From assembly GCA_016931115.1 (NCBI GenBank), contig JAFGFM010000227.1, positions 1-36,496 on the forward strand: a DNA stretch of 36,496 nt, given 5' to 3'. The notes under the pieces were generated by a model. It saw nothing but the letters and a program-made list of their open reading frames with translations, ran no database searches and was not told where the DNA came from. This document shows positions 3,549 to 25,098 of this stretch, piece after piece. Every line of letters begins with the position of its first letter. The first letter of the stretch is position 1. This DNA is from Deltaproteobacteria bacterium. Lineage in GTDB: Bacteria; Desulfobacterota; DSM-4660; Desulfatiglandales; HGW-15. A program made the position numbers and the translations under genes.

Positions 3549-5078
3549 TTAACTGAGAAGACCTGAGCCAAGTTCCCTCTGATGGTCATTTTCAGCGCTA
3601 AGGTTTTTTATATGGAAGAAGTATTTAAAAAGTATCATGATGTCATCCCTGAATGACCTGGTTGATGCATAGAAATTTTCAGAGACCATCCTTTCTTCCC
3701 ATATTGATACAGGGCTCTTTTCTGTTTCCCACAAATGTATAAGCCCTGTTAGAGCGTTTAACCTTACCTTCTGCCAATCCTCACGAAGAAGATTATTCTC
3801 CTCTTCAGAAAGGATTGAGTTGCCAACCAGCCTGATATCGCCCTTTATAACATTGATTAACCCTGGCAGTTTTCTGATTAATGAATAGCTGCTCTTAAAG
3901 TAATATTGAGATAATACAGAAAGCTCAGGGTTTCCTTTCATATCCCTGGAACCATAACCCCCGTATCCTGTTATTGTATCAAGATATCGTTTTGAGGGGC
4001 ACAGAAGGTGATATATGTAGAGAACCAGCATTACAGGAGTGAAAAGACAGAAGAGGAATAGCGCTGCAACTATGTTAAAAATCTTTTCCAGTTTTTCTTT
4101 AAAGAGATTTTTCTCCATATTACCAATAATGGTATCATCATCCACATACAGGTTTGACATTGCAGGGAGGTTAAAAATAAAATTCTGATTAACTATTGAA
4201 TCGTTTATCTCAGTATTTGTCCCTACATAGGTCTTTTCACAGATAATACTTCTTTTTATACTTGAGTCACTGTCAACAATAACACCATCTCCAATGATTG
4301 AATATTCACTGATTGATACTGAACTCTTGATACTGCAATTTTCACCTATCAGTGCAGGGGTATTTATTTCGGCTGCCGGATCGATAAAGGAATTTCTACC
4401 GATCCATAAACCCTTTCTTATCTCCTTTCCAGGTATGGTGATATGGCTTATCTCACCTTTTAATATAGCCCTGTTTACATCAACATAATCCTTCAGGCTC
4501 TCAATAAGAGAGTAATGGAATTCAGCCTTGTATGCATTTGATTTTAAACCTGCATCAGAAAAATTCTTTATAATCTCCTTAATACCAATATGTCCTTTAA
4601 TATTGGTAATATGACATAATGCACGATGGCTCATTATAAAAGGGCGAAATTTATTCAGGCCGGATTGTTTTATTTCTACAGGCGTTACCGGAAGTGTGAG
4701 GTCAGCAAGGGTCTCATTGTGAAAGTTAACAAACTTGGCAATATCCAGATTTGTTATCATGTTTACAGGAAAACAAATAAAACCCTCCTCAATGCTGTTT
4801 TTAATACGTGAAATGGCATCTATTGCGCCATGATATTCCCTGACAAGTGAATAGGAGATATTGCAGCCCCATCGCTCTCCCGCCTTGAAATACTCTTCAG
4901 TCTCATAAGGTTGATGGTTCAGGATGAAAATTATCTCCCTTATGTTATTCTCAAGTAACAGTTCTATCAGATGTTCTGCCACAGGTTTATTTACAACAGG
5001 CATCAGGTAATCTGAGGTCCAGTTGGATAAAGGGGTTAACAGCTCAGGTTTATCAGCAGGCAGGACTATTGCCTTCAT
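3549..5078 (-). CDS. nucleotidyltransferase-like / beta-helix / sugar-transferase-like fusion, probably inactive in both enzyme domains
   Basis: 509 residues in three parts. Residues 1-200 resemble an NDP-sugar pyrophosphorylase (MKAIVLPA at the start, MPVVNKPV at 26-33), but the usual glycine-rich G-x-G-T-R-L loop is replaced by ADKPELLTPL. The metal-binding Gly-Asp region reads FICFPVN. Residues about 222-320 look like hexapeptide/left-handed beta-helix repeats (PALIGENCSI, SIIGDGVIVD). Residues about 330-495 match the bacterial sugar-transferase family: a membrane segment at 333-358, then IRKLPGLINVIKGDIRLVG. The catalytic Asp-Glu of DELPQ is Arg402-Lys403 here, and GPRP reads GNSI. The ATG overlaps the stop of the upstream GT26-STAS gene (ATGA), so the two are translationally coupled. 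It may be a scaffold or regulatory subunit of the initiating transferase; that role is inferred. Confidence 0.78.
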   Translation of the reverse strand: MKAIVLPADKPELLTPLSNWTSDYLMPVVNKPVAEHLIELLLENNIREIIFILNHQPYETEEYFKAGERWGCNISYSLVREYHGAIDAISRIKNSIEEGFICFPVNMITNLDIAKFVNFHNETLADLTLPVTPVEIKQSGLNKFRPFIMSHRALCHITNIKGHIGIKEIIKNFSDAGLKSNAYKAEFHYSLIESLKDYVDVNRAILKGEISHITIPGKEIRKGLWIGRNSFIDPAAEINTPALIGENCSIKSSVSISEYSIIGDGVIVDSDSSIKRSIICEKTYVGTNTEINDSIVNQNFIFNLPAMSNLYVDDDTIIGNMEKNLFKEKLEKIFNIVAALFLFCLFTPVMLVLYIYHLLCPSKRYLDTITGYGGYGSRDMKGNPELSVLSQYYFKSSYSLIRKLPGLINVIKGDIRLVGNSILSEEENNLLREDWQKVRLNALTGLIHLWETEKSPVSIWEERMVSENFYASTRSFRDDIMILFKYFFHIKNLSAENDHQRELGSGLLS

Positions 5079-6625
5079 ATTGAACCCCTTGATAGAAATC
5101 TGTCACTATCAAAATCCGGTATAACCTTGAACAGGCTATTCAGTTTCATTATGTTGAATATCTGCATGATATCCTTGCTGGCATTGCACATAAAAGGGGT
5201 TTTATTATGTAAAGAAAGATGTTTTTTTATTTTTATAAAAAGCGTAAGCCCGGTACTGTCTACAAATTTCAACCCTTTCAGATTAATGACACAGTTATTA
5301 TCACCTATGGATTCTAAAATGCCCTGTACATCAATCTTCGTTATGTTTGCCGCATCAAGTCTGCCAAAAAGCTCTACTTTAAAAAGGCCTTCCTCAAGAG
5401 ATGTAGCATATGAAAAGGCCGTTTCATCACTGACATTCCTGATTTGTTCTGTAACTTTTATATAATTATCCTGATTCTGTTCTTTTACAATATCCCACAG
5501 ACGATTATATTTTAGTAATTTGGCTACACATGGTTTTATGCCTGTCATGAACATACTTTTATTGATGCTGTTGCAATAACTCCATACATCAACCAGAAAA
5601 CCCATAACATAAAGATCCAGGTGTCTTGTCGCACTAAAATCAATAACAAGTGATGAATCCTTATCATCAAGGATGAATGACCAGATATCAGAGATCGATT
5701 CCTTTGTTGCATTAAATGGCATCTTCAGTATAACAGCCCTTTGTTCAGGTCTGACATTGATAGTGATTCTATTTAATGTGTATGATCTCTGGGACCTTAT
5801 TTTTAAAATCAACCTGCCTGCCTTATGTAACAGTATCGGGAGTAAAATGGAGAAACCAAGTTTAAAAAATCCGATGAAATAACGTTTCCATAAGCGGACA
5901 GGGTCCTTGTATATCCTGTATATCCACTCAAGCCCGTTTTTCTGCATCCAGCCAGGCGCCCTTAATACATCACCGGTAATAAAACTGAAAGACCCGCCTA
6001 CACCTATAGATACCGGCACCTTGACATTACCCCTGTTCCTGTTGAACCATATCTCTTGCTTTGGGTTTCCAAGGCCAATAAAAAGTATATCTGCCCCTGA
6101 TTGGTTTATCATGGTAACGATCTTTCTGTCTTCCTCAAGGGAATCAAGCATGGCTTCCCCTTCAGTTGTAATATCAGGGGAGTATGTTCCTGCTATTTTT
6201 AAGCCTTGATATCTCTCCATAAGTATCTTTGCAGCATTATCAGCAATACCCGGTCTTGCGCCAAATAGAAATATGGATTTCTTAAGTTCTGCAGCCTTTT
6301 TTGATATGAAAGGGAGCATGTCAGACCCTGCAACCCTTTCCTTAAGGGGTGAATCCATTAACCTTGATATCCAGACAACTGGCATGCCATCGGCAGTAAC
6401 AAGGTCGGCCCGTCTCAATATATCCAGCAGTTCAGGATGACGCGAGCGTTTACTACTCCATGAAGTAGTGTTCGTTAGAAAATCGACATTTACAGTCGCT
6501 ATATATCTGGGAATGCTGCTGTCTTTGTAGTCATCTATCATCCTGAATACAGAGTCAACTGCCTCAGTCATTGTCAGGTTATCAATAGGGATCCCTAAAA
6601 CAGATATACAGTCTCTTTCAAGCAT
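5075..6625 (-). CDS. WecB/TagA/CpsF (GT26) glycosyltransferase fused to two STAS-like domains
   Basis: About 516 residues from the ATG at 6625, which overlaps the upstream stop as TGATG; a TTG one codon earlier is also possible. Residues 5-250 form a GT26 domain with TVNVDFL, TADGMPVVW (acidic residue near 80) and IGLGNPKQEIWF. GT26 enzymes add the second sugar to a lipid-linked intermediate (WecG, TagA). A hydrophobic stretch (about 252-268) follows. Residues about 285-395 resemble a degenerate STAS fold (LVIDFSATRHLDLYVMGF), and 415-505 are a convincing STAS domain with FGRLDAA and FVDSTGL, the motif phosphorylated in SpoIIAA/RsbV proteins. GT26 proteins usually end after the catalytic part, so the double STAS tail is unusual. 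It may receive regulatory input from the RsbW-like kinase and PP2C phosphatase encoded at 23431-25069. Confidence 0.88.
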   Translation of the reverse strand: MLERDCISVLGIPIDNLTMTEAVDSVFRMIDDYKDSSIPRYIATVNVDFLTNTTSWSSKRSRHPELLDILRRADLVTADGMPVVWISRLMDSPLKERVAGSDMLPFISKKAAELKKSIFLFGARPGIADNAAKILMERYQGLKIAGTYSPDITTEGEAMLDSLEEDRKIVTMINQSGADILFIGLGNPKQEIWFNRNRGNVKVPVSIGVGGSFSFITGDVLRAPGWMQKNGLEWIYRIYKDPVRLWKRYFIGFFKLGFSILLPILLHKAGRLILKIRSQRSYTLNRITINVRPEQRAVILKMPFNATKESISDIWSFILDDKDSSLVIDFSATRHLDLYVMGFLVDVWSYCNSINKSMFMTGIKPCVAKLLKYNRLWDIVKEQNQDNYIKVTEQIRNVSDETAFSYATSLEEGLFKVELFGRLDAANITKIDVQGILESIGDNNCVINLKGLKFVDSTGLTLFIKIKKHLSLHNKTPFMCNASKDIMQIFNIMKLNSLFKVIPDFDSDRFLSRGSI

Positions 6626-7389
6626 CAATATGCCCCTTTCCCTGTAAGTACCGCAGGTATGGTCTTAAAAAGGAGCTTTATGTCTGTCCATATGGACTGG
6701 CTTTCTATGTATTGCAGATCAAGATCCACCTGCCCATCAAAACCTATATTGCTCCTTCCACTCACCTGCCAGAAACAGGTTAGCCCTGGAGTAACATCAA
6801 GCCGCTTAAGGTCTCGGAGCCTGTATTTGGATACCTCTGATGGAAGGGGAGGGCGGGGCCCAACTATTGACATATCTCCCTTAAGGACATTAAAGAGCTG
6901 CGGCAGCTCATCAATAGATAGCTTTCTAATGATTCGCCCTGTACGTGTCAACCTGGGATCTTTTTTAATCTTGAAAATTAAAGACTGGGTCTCATTCAGG
7001 TTATCTAAATCATTCCTTATACGATCTGCATCAGTTACCATTGACCTGAATTTATATATGGTAAATCTTTTACCCCTTATGCCTACACGCTGTTGACAAT
7101 AGATTGCAGTCCCCCTGTCTTCAAGTTTAATAAGTATGACTGTTATAAGGAAAACCGGTGACAGCGCGAGGATCAATAATATAGATAGGATAACATCAAA
7201 ACATCGTTTAATAATAAGGGTGGATTTAACAACAAGATGCCAGCTGTAACGCTTGAAAATATAATACATGACAGAACGAAAGCGGGCAAACCTGCTTCCG
7301 CCTTTTGCATATCTGTCAAAAAGCCTGTCTCTTAATACATTTTCCCGCACACATACCCCACAGTAAAAATAATAGTCGAAATAAAACAA
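6625..7389 (-). CDS. EPS-initiating sugar-phosphate transferase (polyprenyl-phosphate hexose-1-phosphate transferase)
   Basis: About 254 residues. One hydrophobic hairpin-like segment (about 65-88) is followed by the bacterial sugar-transferase core: QQRVGIRGKRFTIYKFRSM, KLSIDELPQLFNVLKGDMS, GPRP (177-180) and PGLTCFWQVSGRS. The Asp160-Glu161 pair corresponds to the catalytic dyad of PglC-type monotopic phosphoglycosyl transferases. It is the short single-segment form, not the long WbaP form with four extra membrane helices. It would load the first sugar phosphate onto undecaprenyl phosphate at the cytoplasmic face of the inner membrane. The start is uncertain: TTG at 7389 has no good ribosome site, while a GTG at 7350 follows a GGGG stretch. 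Its stop is coupled to the GT26-STAS gene. Confidence 0.93.
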   Translation of the reverse strand: MFYFDYYFYCGVCVRENVLRDRLFDRYAKGGSRFARFRSVMYYIFKRYSWHLVVKSTLIIKRCFDVILSILLILALSPVFLITVILIKLEDRGTAIYCQQRVGIRGKRFTIYKFRSMVTDADRIRNDLDNLNETQSLIFKIKKDPRLTRTGRIIRKLSIDELPQLFNVLKGDMSIVGPRPPLPSEVSKYRLRDLKRLDVTPGLTCFWQVSGRSNIGFDGQVDLDLQYIESQSIWTDIKLLFKTIPAVLTGKGAY

Positions 7390-7570
7390 CGGGATTTATA
7401 AATACCTGTTAAACAATCTCTGAAAAAGTATCGGGATAATATATGAGAATCTTTAATAAAAATTGAAATCGGTCAGGTTTATTGGCAGTAAATGAATATT
7501 TTTTTCATTCTTAAAATAAAATAACTAAAAATATTAAATAATTGCAGTTATTAAACCGATAAAAGATATA

Positions 7571-7586
7571 CGGCATTATTATTGCA
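7571..7586 (+). promoter_or_regulatory. candidate sigma-54 (-24/-12) promoter for the PEP-CTERM/exosortase operon
   Basis: CGGCATTATTATTGCA has GG (7572-7573) and GC (7584-7585) exactly 10 bases apart and a complete TTGCA -12 element. It differs from TGGCACG-N4-TTGCW at three positions of the -24 half. Transcription would start near 7597, about 60 bases before the ATG at 7657. Sigma-54 control of PEP-CTERM genes is known in other organisms. Confidence 0.62.
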
Positions 7587-7656
7587 GACATTAACACTAA
7601 AGCTCAAAGCAGAATCAAATATTTACTTTCTTTAAACATTATAGAAGAGTTTATCA

Positions 7657-7914
7657 ATGAGAAAAAAAAATAAACTATTAATTCTGGTATCATTATTTTT
7701 CATATTATTTTTTAATGATTTTCAGATATTCGCAATGGGGATTTTTCCTCCTCCTGAAAACCCTCCATGGGAAAGGAAACCTCCACCGTGGGTTGACCCA
7801 ACTCCTGATGATCCAGCTCCTCCGGCAGCGCCTGAACCTATTTCACTCGCCTTAATTGGGATGGGTGCCAGCGGGGTAGTCGGGTATTATCTGGGCAAAA
7901 AGAAAAATAAATAA
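7657..7914 (+). CDS. very small proline-rich PEP-CTERM protein (likely exosortase substrate)
   Basis: 85 residues. An N-terminal signal peptide (KKNK, then a hydrophobic run, probable cleavage after Ala26) leads to a 35-residue exported segment, 27-61, in which 15 residues are proline and two short copies of PPW occur. The tail has the tripartite PEP-CTERM sorting signal: PEP at 59-61, a transmembrane helix with GMGASG (about 62-80) and a basic end KKKNK. An exosortase would cleave near the PEP motif, leaving a peptide of only about 30-35 residues. The exosortase gene starts 22 bases downstream. The signal is clear; whether the protein is structural, an anchor for polysaccharide, or a regulator cannot be told. 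Confidence 0.9.
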   Translation: MRKKNKLLILVSLFFILFFNDFQIFAMGIFPPPENPPWERKPPPWVDPTPDDPAPPAAPEPISLALIGMGASGVVGYYLGKKKNK

Positions 7915-7936
7915 CTATTCAACTGGAACAAACCTA

Positions 7937-8794
7937 ATGAAATCAATCAGAGGAATGGTTAAGCTAAAGCATGAAAATGCAATATACTATATACCCATGG
8001 TCATTTTCCTGGTTATACTGCTCTATTATCCATTTTTCAGATGGCTTTTGATATCATGGCTAAATAACCCTGCTGATACCTTTGGATATCTGGCGCCTTT
8101 TGTCTCAGCATGGGCTATTTATCTCAGACGAAGAGAGATTAATGGTATTGAAATATCTTCTGCAAAATCAGGCTGGATCCTGTTCCTATCAGGTTTGCTG
8201 CTGGTATTACTTTACCGGATATATGACCAGACAGTATTTGCCTCTGTTTCTCTCCCCCTTTTTTTATATGGAGTTACTCTTATTTACTGGGGAAGAAAAC
8301 GAAGCAGATACATGCTGTTCCCATTCCTGTTTCTTGTATTTCTATACCCATGGGGTGATATTTTGAATACCCTGATTGGCTTCAAGTTAAGACAATTCAG
8401 CGTTTATATATCCTGTCTTATATTTATCTGTATGGGAATGGACGCTGCTATTTCCGGCACCCTGTTGTATACAGGACGATTTCTTGTAGACATTGCACCT
8501 GCCTGCAGCGGGTTGACCATGATGAATGTACTCTTATTTATGGGCGCTATCGGGGCATATCTATATAATGGAAAGAAGTCAAAAGGGATAATAATCTTTT
8601 TATCAGTTATACCTTTAAGTTTAATTATGAACACCATCAGGATATTTTTTACCGGTTTGACAGGGCATTTTTTTGGAGAAAAAACAGCCCTGAATTTTTA
8701 TCATGATATTTCTGGTATGTTTATTTTTGGTCTTGCACTCTTATTTTTATATTGGGAGGCATCTTTTTTTAACCGGGTTGATCAGAAAAAATGA
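7937..8794 (+). CDS. exosortase (PEP-CTERM transpeptidase/protease)
   Basis: 285 residues, almost entirely membrane-spanning, with about eight hydrophobic segments. The three catalytic residues of the exosortase/archaeosortase family are present: Cys190 in APACSGL, Arg235 in MNTIRIFFTG and His256 in FYHDISG. Exosortases cleave PEP-CTERM proteins at the outer face of the inner membrane and are thought to transfer them to a surface acceptor. The upstream gene supplies a likely substrate, and the downstream gene overlaps by four bases (ATGA). An alternative start at the ATG at 7955 follows an AGAGGA stretch and would remove six residues. The family assignment is strong; I do not assign a numbered subclass. 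Confidence 0.95.
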   Translation: MKSIRGMVKLKHENAIYYIPMVIFLVILLYYPFFRWLLISWLNNPADTFGYLAPFVSAWAIYLRRREINGIEISSAKSGWILFLSGLLLVLLYRIYDQTVFASVSLPLFLYGVTLIYWGRKRSRYMLFPFLFLVFLYPWGDILNTLIGFKLRQFSVYISCLIFICMGMDAAISGTLLYTGRFLVDIAPACSGLTMMNVLLFMGAIGAYLYNGKKSKGIIIFLSVIPLSLIMNTIRIFFTGLTGHFFGEKTALNFYHDISGMFIFGLALLFLYWEASFFNRVDQKK

Positions 8795-9663
8795 CAAAAG
8801 AACAAATAAATATATTTAAAAAGGTTGTATATCTTTTACTCGCTATAGGAATAACGATTGAAATCATCGTGATATACAAGGATATTTTTTTATGGATGAA
8901 AACAGCATGGTTTACCTATCCTCCTGACAGGTTTGGAATATTTATCCCCCTGCTTTTTTTGTTTATATTCTTATACAGGTTTATCAGAAATCCTATTAAA
9001 AAAATAAAGGGCAACAGGATCGGGTTCTTTGTAATAGTTAGCGGGGCTTTAATCTTTATGATTGGTATTTTTGCGGATATTCATATCATACAGGCAGCCT
9101 CACTTATTATCACCTGCTATGGTATTGTTTTGTATCTGATGGGCAGTGAATGGGGAATGATTATGCTTTTCCCATTTTTCTTTCTTATTTTTATGCTGCC
9201 CACAACATCTTTTTTAATAGAGTCTATTTTCAGTGTGCCTCTTAGAAGCATGACTGCAAAGATAACATGCAAAATACTGAATTCAACCGGAAGTGCGTGT
9301 GAAACAATTAACTGCATTTTATATGTTTTTAATACAGAACTCCCTGTTCAATATTACAGGGAATCCATATCATCCCTTATGATGCATATAATTCTTACCT
9401 TTATTGCGGCAGAGTTTATCTTCATAAAAAACTGGAGCAAATTTTTGTACCTGCTTTTACTATGGGCACCATATATCATAATCGCTCACAGTGTTTTATA
9501 TCTGGTAATGGGCTGGGTGTATGCATCAGGGAGTGTCAATCAATCTGAAATAATCTGGGCATACAGGAAATGGTTACCTGCCATATTACATGTGTTAATG
9601 CTTATTTTTACCTGGGCCATGATAAGAAAAATTACAGGGAGAAAAGACCATGTCAGCAGATAG
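8791..9663 (+). CDS. exosortase-like membrane protein lacking the catalytic Cys/Arg (pseudo-exosortase)
   Basis: 290 residues with roughly eight membrane segments. It parallels the preceding exosortase in several stretches: PPDRFGIFIPLL against NPADTFGYLAPFV, GFFVIVSGALIF against GWILFLSGLLLV, and YLMGSEWGMIMLFPFFFLIF against YWGRKRSRYMLFPFLFLVF. By hand alignment on the shared Met-Met pair, the active-site Cys becomes Ser192 (YYRESISSLMMH) and the Arg position falls at Leu236 (AHSVLYLVMG); no HD-x-x-G motif is seen near the end. It is therefore probably catalytically dead and may pair with or regulate the active enzyme. Start and stop are coupled to the neighbours (4-base overlap upstream, 14-base overlap with the EpsI gene). 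The homology is my reading and not a database result. Confidence 0.75.
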   Translation: MTKEQINIFKKVVYLLLAIGITIEIIVIYKDIFLWMKTAWFTYPPDRFGIFIPLLFLFIFLYRFIRNPIKKIKGNRIGFFVIVSGALIFMIGIFADIHIIQAASLIITCYGIVLYLMGSEWGMIMLFPFFFLIFMLPTTSFLIESIFSVPLRSMTAKITCKILNSTGSACETINCILYVFNTELPVQYYRESISSLMMHIILTFIAAEFIFIKNWSKFLYLLLLWAPYIIIAHSVLYLVMGWVYASGSVNQSEIIWAYRKWLPAILHVLMLIFTWAMIRKITGRKDHVSR

Positions 9664-10276
9664 CCAGGCGAAAAAATTAAAAATAATTTTCCTTATACTT
9701 TTATTTGTTATTCTTTTTTTGTACTGGTTTAATAAGAAACAAAAGAATATTGAAATAGGCTCTTCCCTGGATAATATCACAATGGATATCGATGGATGGA
9801 AAGGAACCAACCTTACTCCCAGTGAAAAGGAAAAGAACTGGGTAGATAAGGGGGATCTGATAATCAGAAGCTATCAGAAAGACAACAATTCAGTATACCT
9901 TGTGGCAATACAGGAAAAAGGTGATCGCCACAAGGTACATTCCCCTCAAGATTGTTATTCAGGTTCTGGCTGGGTTATTTTAAGAAAAGACAATATAAGC
10001 ATAGGTGATGAAAATAACAAAGATAAGATCGTCAGAAGAATGCATGTGGCAAAGGATAACAAATCGCGACTGGTTTATTACTGGTTCACAAACGGATATG
10101 AACGATCTACTAGTTTTAAAGGACACCTAATTCTATTTTTGAGGGACATTCTGCTGAAGGGCTCAATAAGATCATGGATGTGCATCCAGGTTTCCGCTGA
10201 TATAAAAACTGATGCAGACAGGACTTCAGAGATAATGGAATCCTTTATAAGCCAACTTGACACTCAGAACAGGTAA
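9650..10276 (+). CDS. EpsI-family exosortase-associated protein
   Basis: 208 residues. One N-terminal membrane anchor (about 10-26) is followed by an exported domain carrying EpsI hallmarks: DGWKG, HSPQDCYSGSGW (about 97-108) and YYWFTNG. EpsI proteins occur next to or fused to exosortases and EPS genes; their biochemical role is unproven, though the conserved Cys in the HSP...CY motif suggests a catalytic or binding site. The start ATG follows a GGGAG ribosome site inside the end of the upstream gene. It completes a cassette of substrate, exosortase, pseudo-exosortase and EpsI. Confidence 0.88.
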   Translation: MSADSQAKKLKIIFLILLFVILFLYWFNKKQKNIEIGSSLDNITMDIDGWKGTNLTPSEKEKNWVDKGDLIIRSYQKDNNSVYLVAIQEKGDRHKVHSPQDCYSGSGWVILRKDNISIGDENNKDKIVRRMHVAKDNKSRLVYYWFTNGYERSTSFKGHLILFLRDILLKGSIRSWMCIQVSADIKTDADRTSEIMESFISQLDTQNR

Positions 10277-23430: not shown

Positions 23431-23859
23431 TTAATATCTTTTAATCATGACAAGATGATTTCCTTTATCATCACTGCTGTAGGTAACATGGTTCATAAAT
23501 TCCTTTATAAAACCCAGGCCTCTGCCTGATTCTGATATATCAGAGATATTGTCCATACTATTATCCGGATATTTGATGACCGCCTCTTCAAGGATATTTA
23601 TATTCATCGGTTTTCCATGGTCACAGATCTCGATTTCTATCAGCCTCTCTTTTAATGTTAATATGATTTCGACATTATTATCTGATTTACTGTTGTATGC
23701 ATGAATTATGCTGTTATTGATTGCCTCAACAGAGCAAAGCTCCACCTGGAATGATTGCGTCTCATTTAAAGGAGTAAGAGAGCATATCTTATTGATTGCC
23801 ATACCGGCAAGAGCAACATTTTCAAGATCACTCTCAATTATTAACCTGATCTTCTTCAA
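23431..23859 (-). CDS. RsbW-like serine kinase / anti-sigma factor (HATPase domain)
   Basis: 142 residues. GHKL ATPase motifs are an N box (EAINNSIIHAY, 45-55), a G1 box (EICDHGKPM, 77-85) and a G2 box (ESGRGLGFI, 110-118). This compact form without a histidine dimerisation domain is typical of RsbW/SpoIIAB anti-sigma kinases, which phosphorylate STAS antagonists. The start codon is TTG, supported by AAAGGG seven to eight bases upstream and no in-frame alternative nearby. No cognate sigma factor gene is in the window, so its second partner is unknown. Confidence 0.92.
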   Translation of the reverse strand: MKKIRLIIESDLENVALAGMAINKICSLTPLNETQSFQVELCSVEAINNSIIHAYNSKSDNNVEIILTLKERLIEIEICDHGKPMNINILEEAVIKYPDNSMDNISDISESGRGLGFIKEFMNHVTYSSDDKGNHLVMIKRY

Positions 23860-23881: not shown

Positions 23882-25069
23882 TTATTTCATTTCAAAGGCA
23901 AGGAGTGATATGTCATCATCAAATTCACCCCCGCCTTTCCATTCCTTAAGATTCTTTTCCACGTCAGTAATAAGGTCGTGCAGAGGCAGCCCCTTGTTTT
24001 TTTTGATAATCTCAACAAAACGTTCTGTTGAAAAGGTGATGCCCTTATCATTCGGGCATTCTATTATGCCATCTGAATACAGGATAAACCTGTCACCGCT
24101 TTCAAGATAAAATTCATTTTCTTCATATGTTGCATCAGGGAATATGCCAACAGGAAATCCGCCTGACCCTATGAATGATGTAGAGCCATTCTTTTCTATC
24201 TTTATGGGTGATGGATGTCCTGCCTGGGTAATATTAACCTGGCCGGTCCTTGCATTGATTACGCCATATACCATGGTAAAATACTGCATGGAATCATCAG
24301 AGGCTTGAAAACGCTGGTTAAGGTCTTCCACTACATCCTTTGGTCGTGTGTACTCATAGTATGGTGGTATTATTAAAAATTTCTTTAACGGACTGTCCTG
24401 GTTGTCAACTGGTGAAAGATATCTGCTTAATGTTATGGATAGAAGGGCAGATGGAATGCCATGCCCTGCCACATCAAGCAGATAAAAGCCGATGTGATCA
24501 TCAACAAGCCAGAAGTAATTAAAAATATCCCCTGCCATAAATGCCGCGGGCATAAAAAGCCAGTCAAATTCAACACCGGATATCATTGCATCGGATTTTG
24601 GCAGAAGACTTAATTGTATCTTTGCAGCAGCCTCAAGATCCTTCTTTATGGCTGCATAGGTATCAGCAAGTTTTCGGTTCTGTTCTTCCTTGCTCTTTTC
24701 AAGCTGAAGTATACGTTCGCCAATGCGTATCTTTACAAACAGTTCATCCCTGTCACAGGGCTTTACTATAAAATCATCTGCGCCTGCCTCAAGACCCTCT
24801 ATCATCTCACTTTTTTCTTCTTTTGATGTAAGGATAACAATATAGACATAGTGGCTAAGGTCAGCACTTCGGATCCTTTTACAGAGCTCAAGTCCATCCA
24901 TTTCAGGCATTATCCAGTCAGTAATAACAAAATTGATATTACTTTTCTGTATGATATCCCAGGCCTCTTTTCCATCTGAGGCCATTGTAACACCGTACCC
25001 CAGCTTTGAAAGAAGTTTTGCTAAAAGTACCCTTGAAGGTAAGTTATCATCAGCAATTAATATGTTCAT
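23882..25069 (-). CDS. response regulator with PP2C (SpoIIE/RsbU-type) phosphatase output
   Basis: 395 residues from the ATG at 25069. An upstream TTG at 25087 lies inside the predicted promoter and adds six poor residues. REC domain about 1-118: ILIADDN, phospho-acceptor Asp51 in VITDWIMPEMDG, and Lys103 in VKPCDRDE. A short coiled coil (about 120-160) leads into a SpoIIE-type phosphatase: MAGDIFNYF (Asp181), LLDVAGHGIPSAL (Asp199), FILYSDGIIE and the terminal FDDDISLL, which together supply the metal-binding aspartates. It would dephosphorylate the STAS antagonist when the receiver is phosphorylated. There is no Shine-Dalgarno before the ATG. The kinase that feeds the receiver is not adjacent. 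Confidence 0.93.
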   Translation of the reverse strand: MNILIADDNLPSRVLLAKLLSKLGYGVTMASDGKEAWDIIQKSNINFVITDWIMPEMDGLELCKRIRSADLSHYVYIVILTSKEEKSEMIEGLEAGADDFIVKPCDRDELFVKIRIGERILQLEKSKEEQNRKLADTYAAIKKDLEAAAKIQLSLLPKSDAMISGVEFDWLFMPAAFMAGDIFNYFWLVDDHIGFYLLDVAGHGIPSALLSITLSRYLSPVDNQDSPLKKFLIIPPYYEYTRPKDVVEDLNQRFQASDDSMQYFTMVYGVINARTGQVNITQAGHPSPIKIEKNGSTSFIGSGGFPVGIFPDATYEENEFYLESGDRFILYSDGIIECPNDKGITFSTERFVEIIKKNKGLPLHDLITDVEKNLKEWKGGGEFDDDISLLAFEMK

Positions 25070-25082
25070 GCTGGATGATATT

Positions 25083-25098
25083 TGCAATATTTGAGCCA
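25083..25098 (-). promoter_or_regulatory. candidate sigma-54 (-24/-12) promoter for the partner-switch operon
   Basis: Minus strand TGGCTCAAATATTGCA has GG and GC 10 bases apart and two differences from TGGCACG-N4-TTGCW. The predicted start near 25072 is only three bases before the ATG of the REC-PP2C gene, which has no Shine-Dalgarno sequence. The message would therefore be nearly leaderless, which makes this site less certain than its sequence match suggests. Confidence 0.5.

Follow-up and report, generated by a model that had tools for sequence, protein, structure and literature searches.

Exosortases are membrane enzymes with a presumed role in the cleavage and sorting of surface proteins. 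The family is characterized by the motifs Cys-x-Gly, Asn-x-x-Arg, and His-x-x-x-Gly, which together comprise six invariant residues (Haft et al. 2006; PMC1569441). EpsI, the exosortase-associated protein, was listed in 2006 as having no known function (PMC1569441). In a different sorting system, SipA, a signal-peptidase relative devoid of the catalytic Ser and Lys, is essential for sortase-built pili (PMC4049620). The locus described here features an active-type exosortase and, immediately downstream, a full-length paralog that carries none of the six residues at the aligned positions and is under purifying selection. It lies in the window, i.e., the whole stretch of 36,496 nucleotides that was analyzed.

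The cassette consists of four tightly packed genes at 7657–10276 on the plus strand (Table 1) and is embedded in an exopolysaccharide cluster. As judged from the open reading frames—with the domains partly checked—the flanks of the cassette hold glycosyltransferases, sugar transferases, a flippase-like gene, and a gene of the chain-length/tyrosine-kinase type. With a PEP-CTERM protein, an active exosortase, and EpsI side by side among exopolysaccharide genes, the locus is a PEP-CTERM/exosortase cassette. Inspected by eye, the PEP-CTERM protein features a signal peptide, a Pro-rich stretch, the PEP motif, a hydrophobic helix, and a KKKNK tail. The HSPxxC....GW motif common to other EpsI proteins is intact in the EpsI of the window, which scores highest against the fused XrtD model. 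The exosortase and paralog genes overlap by 4 bases (ATGA), and the paralog and EpsI genes by 14 bases, exactly as the earlier note had read them; because of these overlaps, co-transcription of exosortase, paralog, and EpsI is very likely, so that the claim of the three being made together is very probably correct.

Table 1. Genes of the cassette, with positions in the window and the scores or alignment on which each assignment is based
Feature	Position	Strand	Basis
Small Pro-rich PEP-CTERM protein, 85 aa, presumed dedicated substrate	7657..7914	+	TIGR02595 16 bits, at cut-off
Active-type exosortase, 285 aa, C190xG, N232xxR235, H256xxxG	7937..8794	+	PF09721 173.5 bits
Exosortase paralog, 290 aa, without the six invariant residues	8791..9663	+	PF09721 72 bits, profile alignment
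EpsI (exosortase-associated protein), 208 aa	9650..10276	+	TIGR02914 61 bits, PF11984 91 bits

The PEP-CTERM proteins of this type of cassette, in the window and in a second species of the genus (L017:6005-6265 and 6390-6626), are very short and Pro-rich, with a mature part of approximately 25–35 residues. Their C-terminal tail reads GMGASGVxGYYLGK, whereas the other tails examined in the source genome (G000) are of the GSGLLGLAGF type. This genome carries approximately 17 PEP-CTERM tails, another full-length intact exosortase (C128:2343-3092), and three more exosortase/archaeosortase-like matches that are shorter or weaker (C164, C172, and C119; the four loci are L021, L024, L025, and L026); hence, several sorting systems coexist. 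A further feature of the exopolysaccharide cluster is a WecG/TagA-type glycosyltransferase at 5075–6628 (minus strand), the C-terminus of which gives two STAS matches. An RsbW-like HATPase (23431–23859, minus strand) and a response regulator–SpoIIE phosphatase (23882–25087, minus strand) are encoded in the same cluster. Together these genes look like a partner-switching system, possibly one whose direct target is a glycosyltransferase of exopolysaccharide synthesis.

The paralog is a full-length exosortase homolog and not a chance likeness. Its score for the fold family PF09721 and that of the copy in the second species (80 bits) lie well above the curated Pfam cut-off of 25.7, and a comparison of profile scores, which had been proposed beforehand, places it in the family together with its neighbor (Table 1). 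BLASTP aligns the two neighbors with an E-value of 6e-15, and the DRFG, SG, and MLFPF stretches match. The Smith-Waterman score of the pair is 193, compared with 50 ± 8.7 and a maximum of 97 for 500 locally shuffled versions in which the hydrophobic pattern was kept. Aligning a profile of the two dead paralogs, from the window and from the second species, with an alignment of active-type exosortases by hhalign gave a probability of 99.3% and an E-value of 1e-20 over 275 columns. The same order of segments and matching stretches that the earlier note had pointed out by hand are hence borne out. As regards the order of about eight membrane helices, hydropathy peaks coincide with those of the neighbor along most of the protein, but the predicted structure is of poor quality: the AlphaFold model of the paralog, computed from a two-sequence alignment, has a mean pLDDT of 46.5. 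A PDB sequence search with both proteins returned no exosortase relative. The narrower models separate the pair: the active-type exosortase reaches 117 bits against TIGR02602 and 65 bits against TIGR04178, both above cut-off, whereas the paralog reaches 37 bits against TIGR02602, below the cut-off of 105.55, and does not match the C-terminal signature model TIGR04178. The best NCBIfam model for the paralog is XrtW (NF038142) with 73 bits, covering the N-terminal part only and falling short of the cut-off of 425 bits; XrtD (TIGR04152) yields 48–58 bits at a cut-off of 400.

All six invariant residues are present in the active-type exosortase (C190, G192, N232, R235, H256, and G260), and all six are replaced in the paralog, where the profile alignment places R190, S192, H233, L236, W256, and K260. 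The Cys-x-Gly position is occupied by Arg190-Glu-Ser192, and the only C.G of the paralog lies at 109, away from the motif. The Asn-x-x-Arg position reads His233-S-V-Leu236, with Ile in place of Leu in the second species, and no N..R occurs anywhere in the sequence. The His-x-x-x-Gly position reads Trp256-A-Y-R-Lys260, and likewise no H...G occurs anywhere in the sequence. Pairwise alignments move the position of the catalytic Cys by 1–3 residues, and none of them puts a Cys there; Cys109, Cys160, Cys170, and Cys175 of the paralog are conserved. The hand alignment of the earlier note was thus right about the missing Cys, about Leu236 at the Arg position, and about the missing HD-x-x-G motif, but its assignment of Ser192 to the Cys position does not hold, since the profile alignment puts Arg190 there and Ser192 at the Gly of the motif. 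As judged by its sequence, the paralog is catalytically dead as an exosortase.

The second species of the genus (G001) carries the same order of PEP-CTERM protein, exosortase, dead paralog, and EpsI, with two small PEP-CTERM genes at the first position. Its paralog is 76% identical to that of the window, lacks the same six residues, and has identical replacements except for L236, which is Ile. The reading frame is intact in both species. The dN/dS of the paralog between them is 0.22 (bootstrap 0.15–0.33), and the substitutions are distributed over the three codon positions as 45/27/85, i.e., with an excess at the third position. The paralog is hence under purifying selection and not decaying, and a non-catalytic paralog, as proposed from the single sequence, is what both species hold. 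In addition, it is better conserved between the two species than the active exosortase, with 76% compared with 59% identity. The latter is a mosaic: residues 1–164 are 43% identical, residues 165–285, which contain the catalytic motifs, 78%. The substrate peptide is 51% identical. At the nucleotide level, identity is approximately 0.5–0.6 over the PEP-CTERM gene and the N-terminal exosortase half (7657–8430 versus L017:6390-7160) and approximately 0.8 over the catalytic half of the exosortase, the paralog, and most of EpsI. This mosaic suggests an exchange or a co-divergence of substrate and recognition half. Because divergence of the paralog is even along its length, whereas strong divergence is seen in the substrate and in the N-terminal exosortase half, the paralog would appear to belong to the machine's constant portion and not to its variable substrate side, as far as two genomes can indicate; its even conservation is a mild argument against a function in recognizing the variable substrate.

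The paralog is known from these two species only, both represented by draft assemblies. A profile search found no close relative in the rest of the class (85 genomes) or in the phylum (395 genomes; a second phylum sample of 394 genomes from another center overlapped with the first), and the next best matches scored approximately 60 bits or less and, in every case in which the active site was checked, proved to be ordinary exosortases. No relatives were returned by scans of genome collections with the paralog sequence and with the alignment of the pair, nor by a search of plasmids, and scans of viral collections gave no homologs by which the alignment could be deepened. Two adjacent full-length exosortase matches occur only in G000 and G001 in a class-wide Pfam search; in G025 and G364, two intact copies lie 6–7 kb apart. 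Among 131 complete family members that were aligned, Cys and Arg are both kept in 128, and Cys, Arg, and His were directly seen in 116. The remaining 15 comprise nine archaeosortase-type proteins, all short and with an H-x-Y shift; three proteins in which Cys and Arg are intact but the His column differs; and three whose aligned positions hold neither Cys nor Arg: the paralog of the window, the copy in the second species, and a protein of the unrelated genome G301. Most apparent losses of the His are alignment shifts, comprising the nine proteins with H-x-Y and two fused proteins with a His three residues upstream. One exosortase with intact Cys and Arg motifs (L169; G329:C8:49927-50685) has an Asp in the His column (EFYDGFAGW) and may be a true His-to-Asp variant of the triad.

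The G301 protein is one of two LamG–VanZ–exosortase fusions on contig C35 (L158:1144-3108 and 5754-7730) that are 36% identical over 648 residues and are separated by MBOAT and DUF1574 genes. All motifs are present in the first fusion; the second has its Cys displaced by one residue, Asn in place of the Arg, and Ser in place of the His. This pair apparently arose independently of the cassette of the genus. The search of genomes for neighboring catalytic and non-catalytic exosortases that the earlier note had suggested thus yielded G000, G001, and the separate pair of G301, and degenerate partners beside intact exosortases are rare and seem to have arisen more than once. In a tree of 67 proteins, the branch of the paralog is very long (4.4 changes per site), and, given a p-AU of 0.41 and the long branches, a sister grouping of the two paralogs of the window can be neither upheld nor dismissed; for this reason, an origin of the paralog by tandem duplication of its neighbor is likely rather than proven.

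From operon structure and constraint, the pseudo-exosortase is probably a non-catalytic partner of the neighboring exosortase and of EpsI in a dedicated PEP-CTERM cassette. The paralog would have kept the multi-span membrane fold, lost catalysis, and been retained as a partner. The active exosortase would cut the small Pro-rich peptide at the PEP motif, with the pseudo-exosortase located beside it in the membrane. The latter would contact EpsI, the common acceptor, or the conserved half of the exosortase that contains the catalytic motifs rather than the variable substrate part and—by analogy with SipA—may assist in retaining or passing on the acyl-enzyme or the acceptor. A bolder extension, rather unlikely as it stands, is that exosortases in part work as obligate catalytic/non-catalytic pairs, which would have arisen at least twice (in this genus and in G301), with the dead subunit serving the acceptor-binding or release step of transpeptidation.

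Four other roles can be considered for the paralog. It could be a regulator or decoy that restrains the active exosortase by binding to it or to its substrate, a common mode of action of pseudoproteases that agrees with the shared fold family and the probable co-expression; a fixed operon with the target is awkward for a switch, however, and no sequence feature suggests inhibition, so that we regard this role as unlikely. Quite unlikely is a new chemistry, in which Ser192, His233, Arg190/Glu191, and Trp256 would form a new active site, e.g., that of a serine-type transferase whose action follows that of the exosortase. R190, E191, S192, S194, S195, H199, H233, W256, R259, and K260 are indeed identical in both species, and the stretch 183–199 is 94% identical compared with 76% overall, but 10% of windows of equal length reach that value—local conservation being merely mildly above that of the rest of the protein—and no relative of known activity exists. 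The 14-base overlap with the EpsI gene, the fusion of EpsI to an exosortase domain in many relatives (L022, L023), and the preference of the EpsI of the window for the fused XrtD model would fit a paralog that is a membrane platform for EpsI as its sole partner, without contact to the active exosortase; this is very unlikely, as many stand-alone EpsI genes adjoin active exosortases without an extra platform. Finally, a decaying duplicate without function would account for the loss of all catalytic residues and for the very long branch, but is highly improbable, with a decaying pseudogene rejected on account of the frame kept intact in two species, a dN/dS whose bootstrap range stays well below 1, and conservation exceeding that of the active gene.

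As a non-catalytic partner, the paralog would give the cassette its wider interest. Conserved and dead, it occurs with one active enzyme, a tiny substrate, and EpsI in an apparent operon, and this would be a compact natural system in which to tell the cutting step apart from the other steps. To our knowledge, the completion of the exosortase reaction, the identity of the acceptor, and the role of EpsI are not settled. A literature search, which did not extend to the main review of 2012, found no described case of an exosortase that is inactive, paired, paralogous, or a pseudo-enzyme. The family itself is known; because of this scope of the search, the description of a pair formed by an active exosortase and a dead yet conserved one as new to the literature is provisional.

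Among known systems, the exosortase/EpsH family (PF09721, TIGR02602, TIGR04178) is close to the paralog, which belongs to the same multi-span membrane family over its full length and, within an exopolysaccharide cluster, is encoded beside EpsI and a PEP-CTERM gene. It differs from this family by the absence of CxG, NxxR, and HxxxG from the aligned positions, by a score below the TIGR02602 cut-off, and by the lack of a TIGR04178 match. The models of XrtW (NF038142) and XrtD (TIGR04152) both include an EpsI part, and the cassette likewise ends in EpsI; the paralog, however, stays far below their cut-offs, and XrtW and XrtD are each one fused protein whose exosortase domain is of the active type. 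The degenerate fusion of G301 (L158:5754-7730) is also a degenerate exosortase encoded near an intact paralog, but has a LamG–VanZ–exosortase architecture, two acyltransferase-like genes between the members of the pair, and a Cys that is just one residue off. SipA of Streptococcus pyogenes is not homologous to the paralog, having a signal-peptidase fold and acting with a Gram-positive sortase; as an analogy of function, however, it is likewise a protease relative without catalytic residues that is encoded together with the sorting enzyme, and it is needed for surface assembly.
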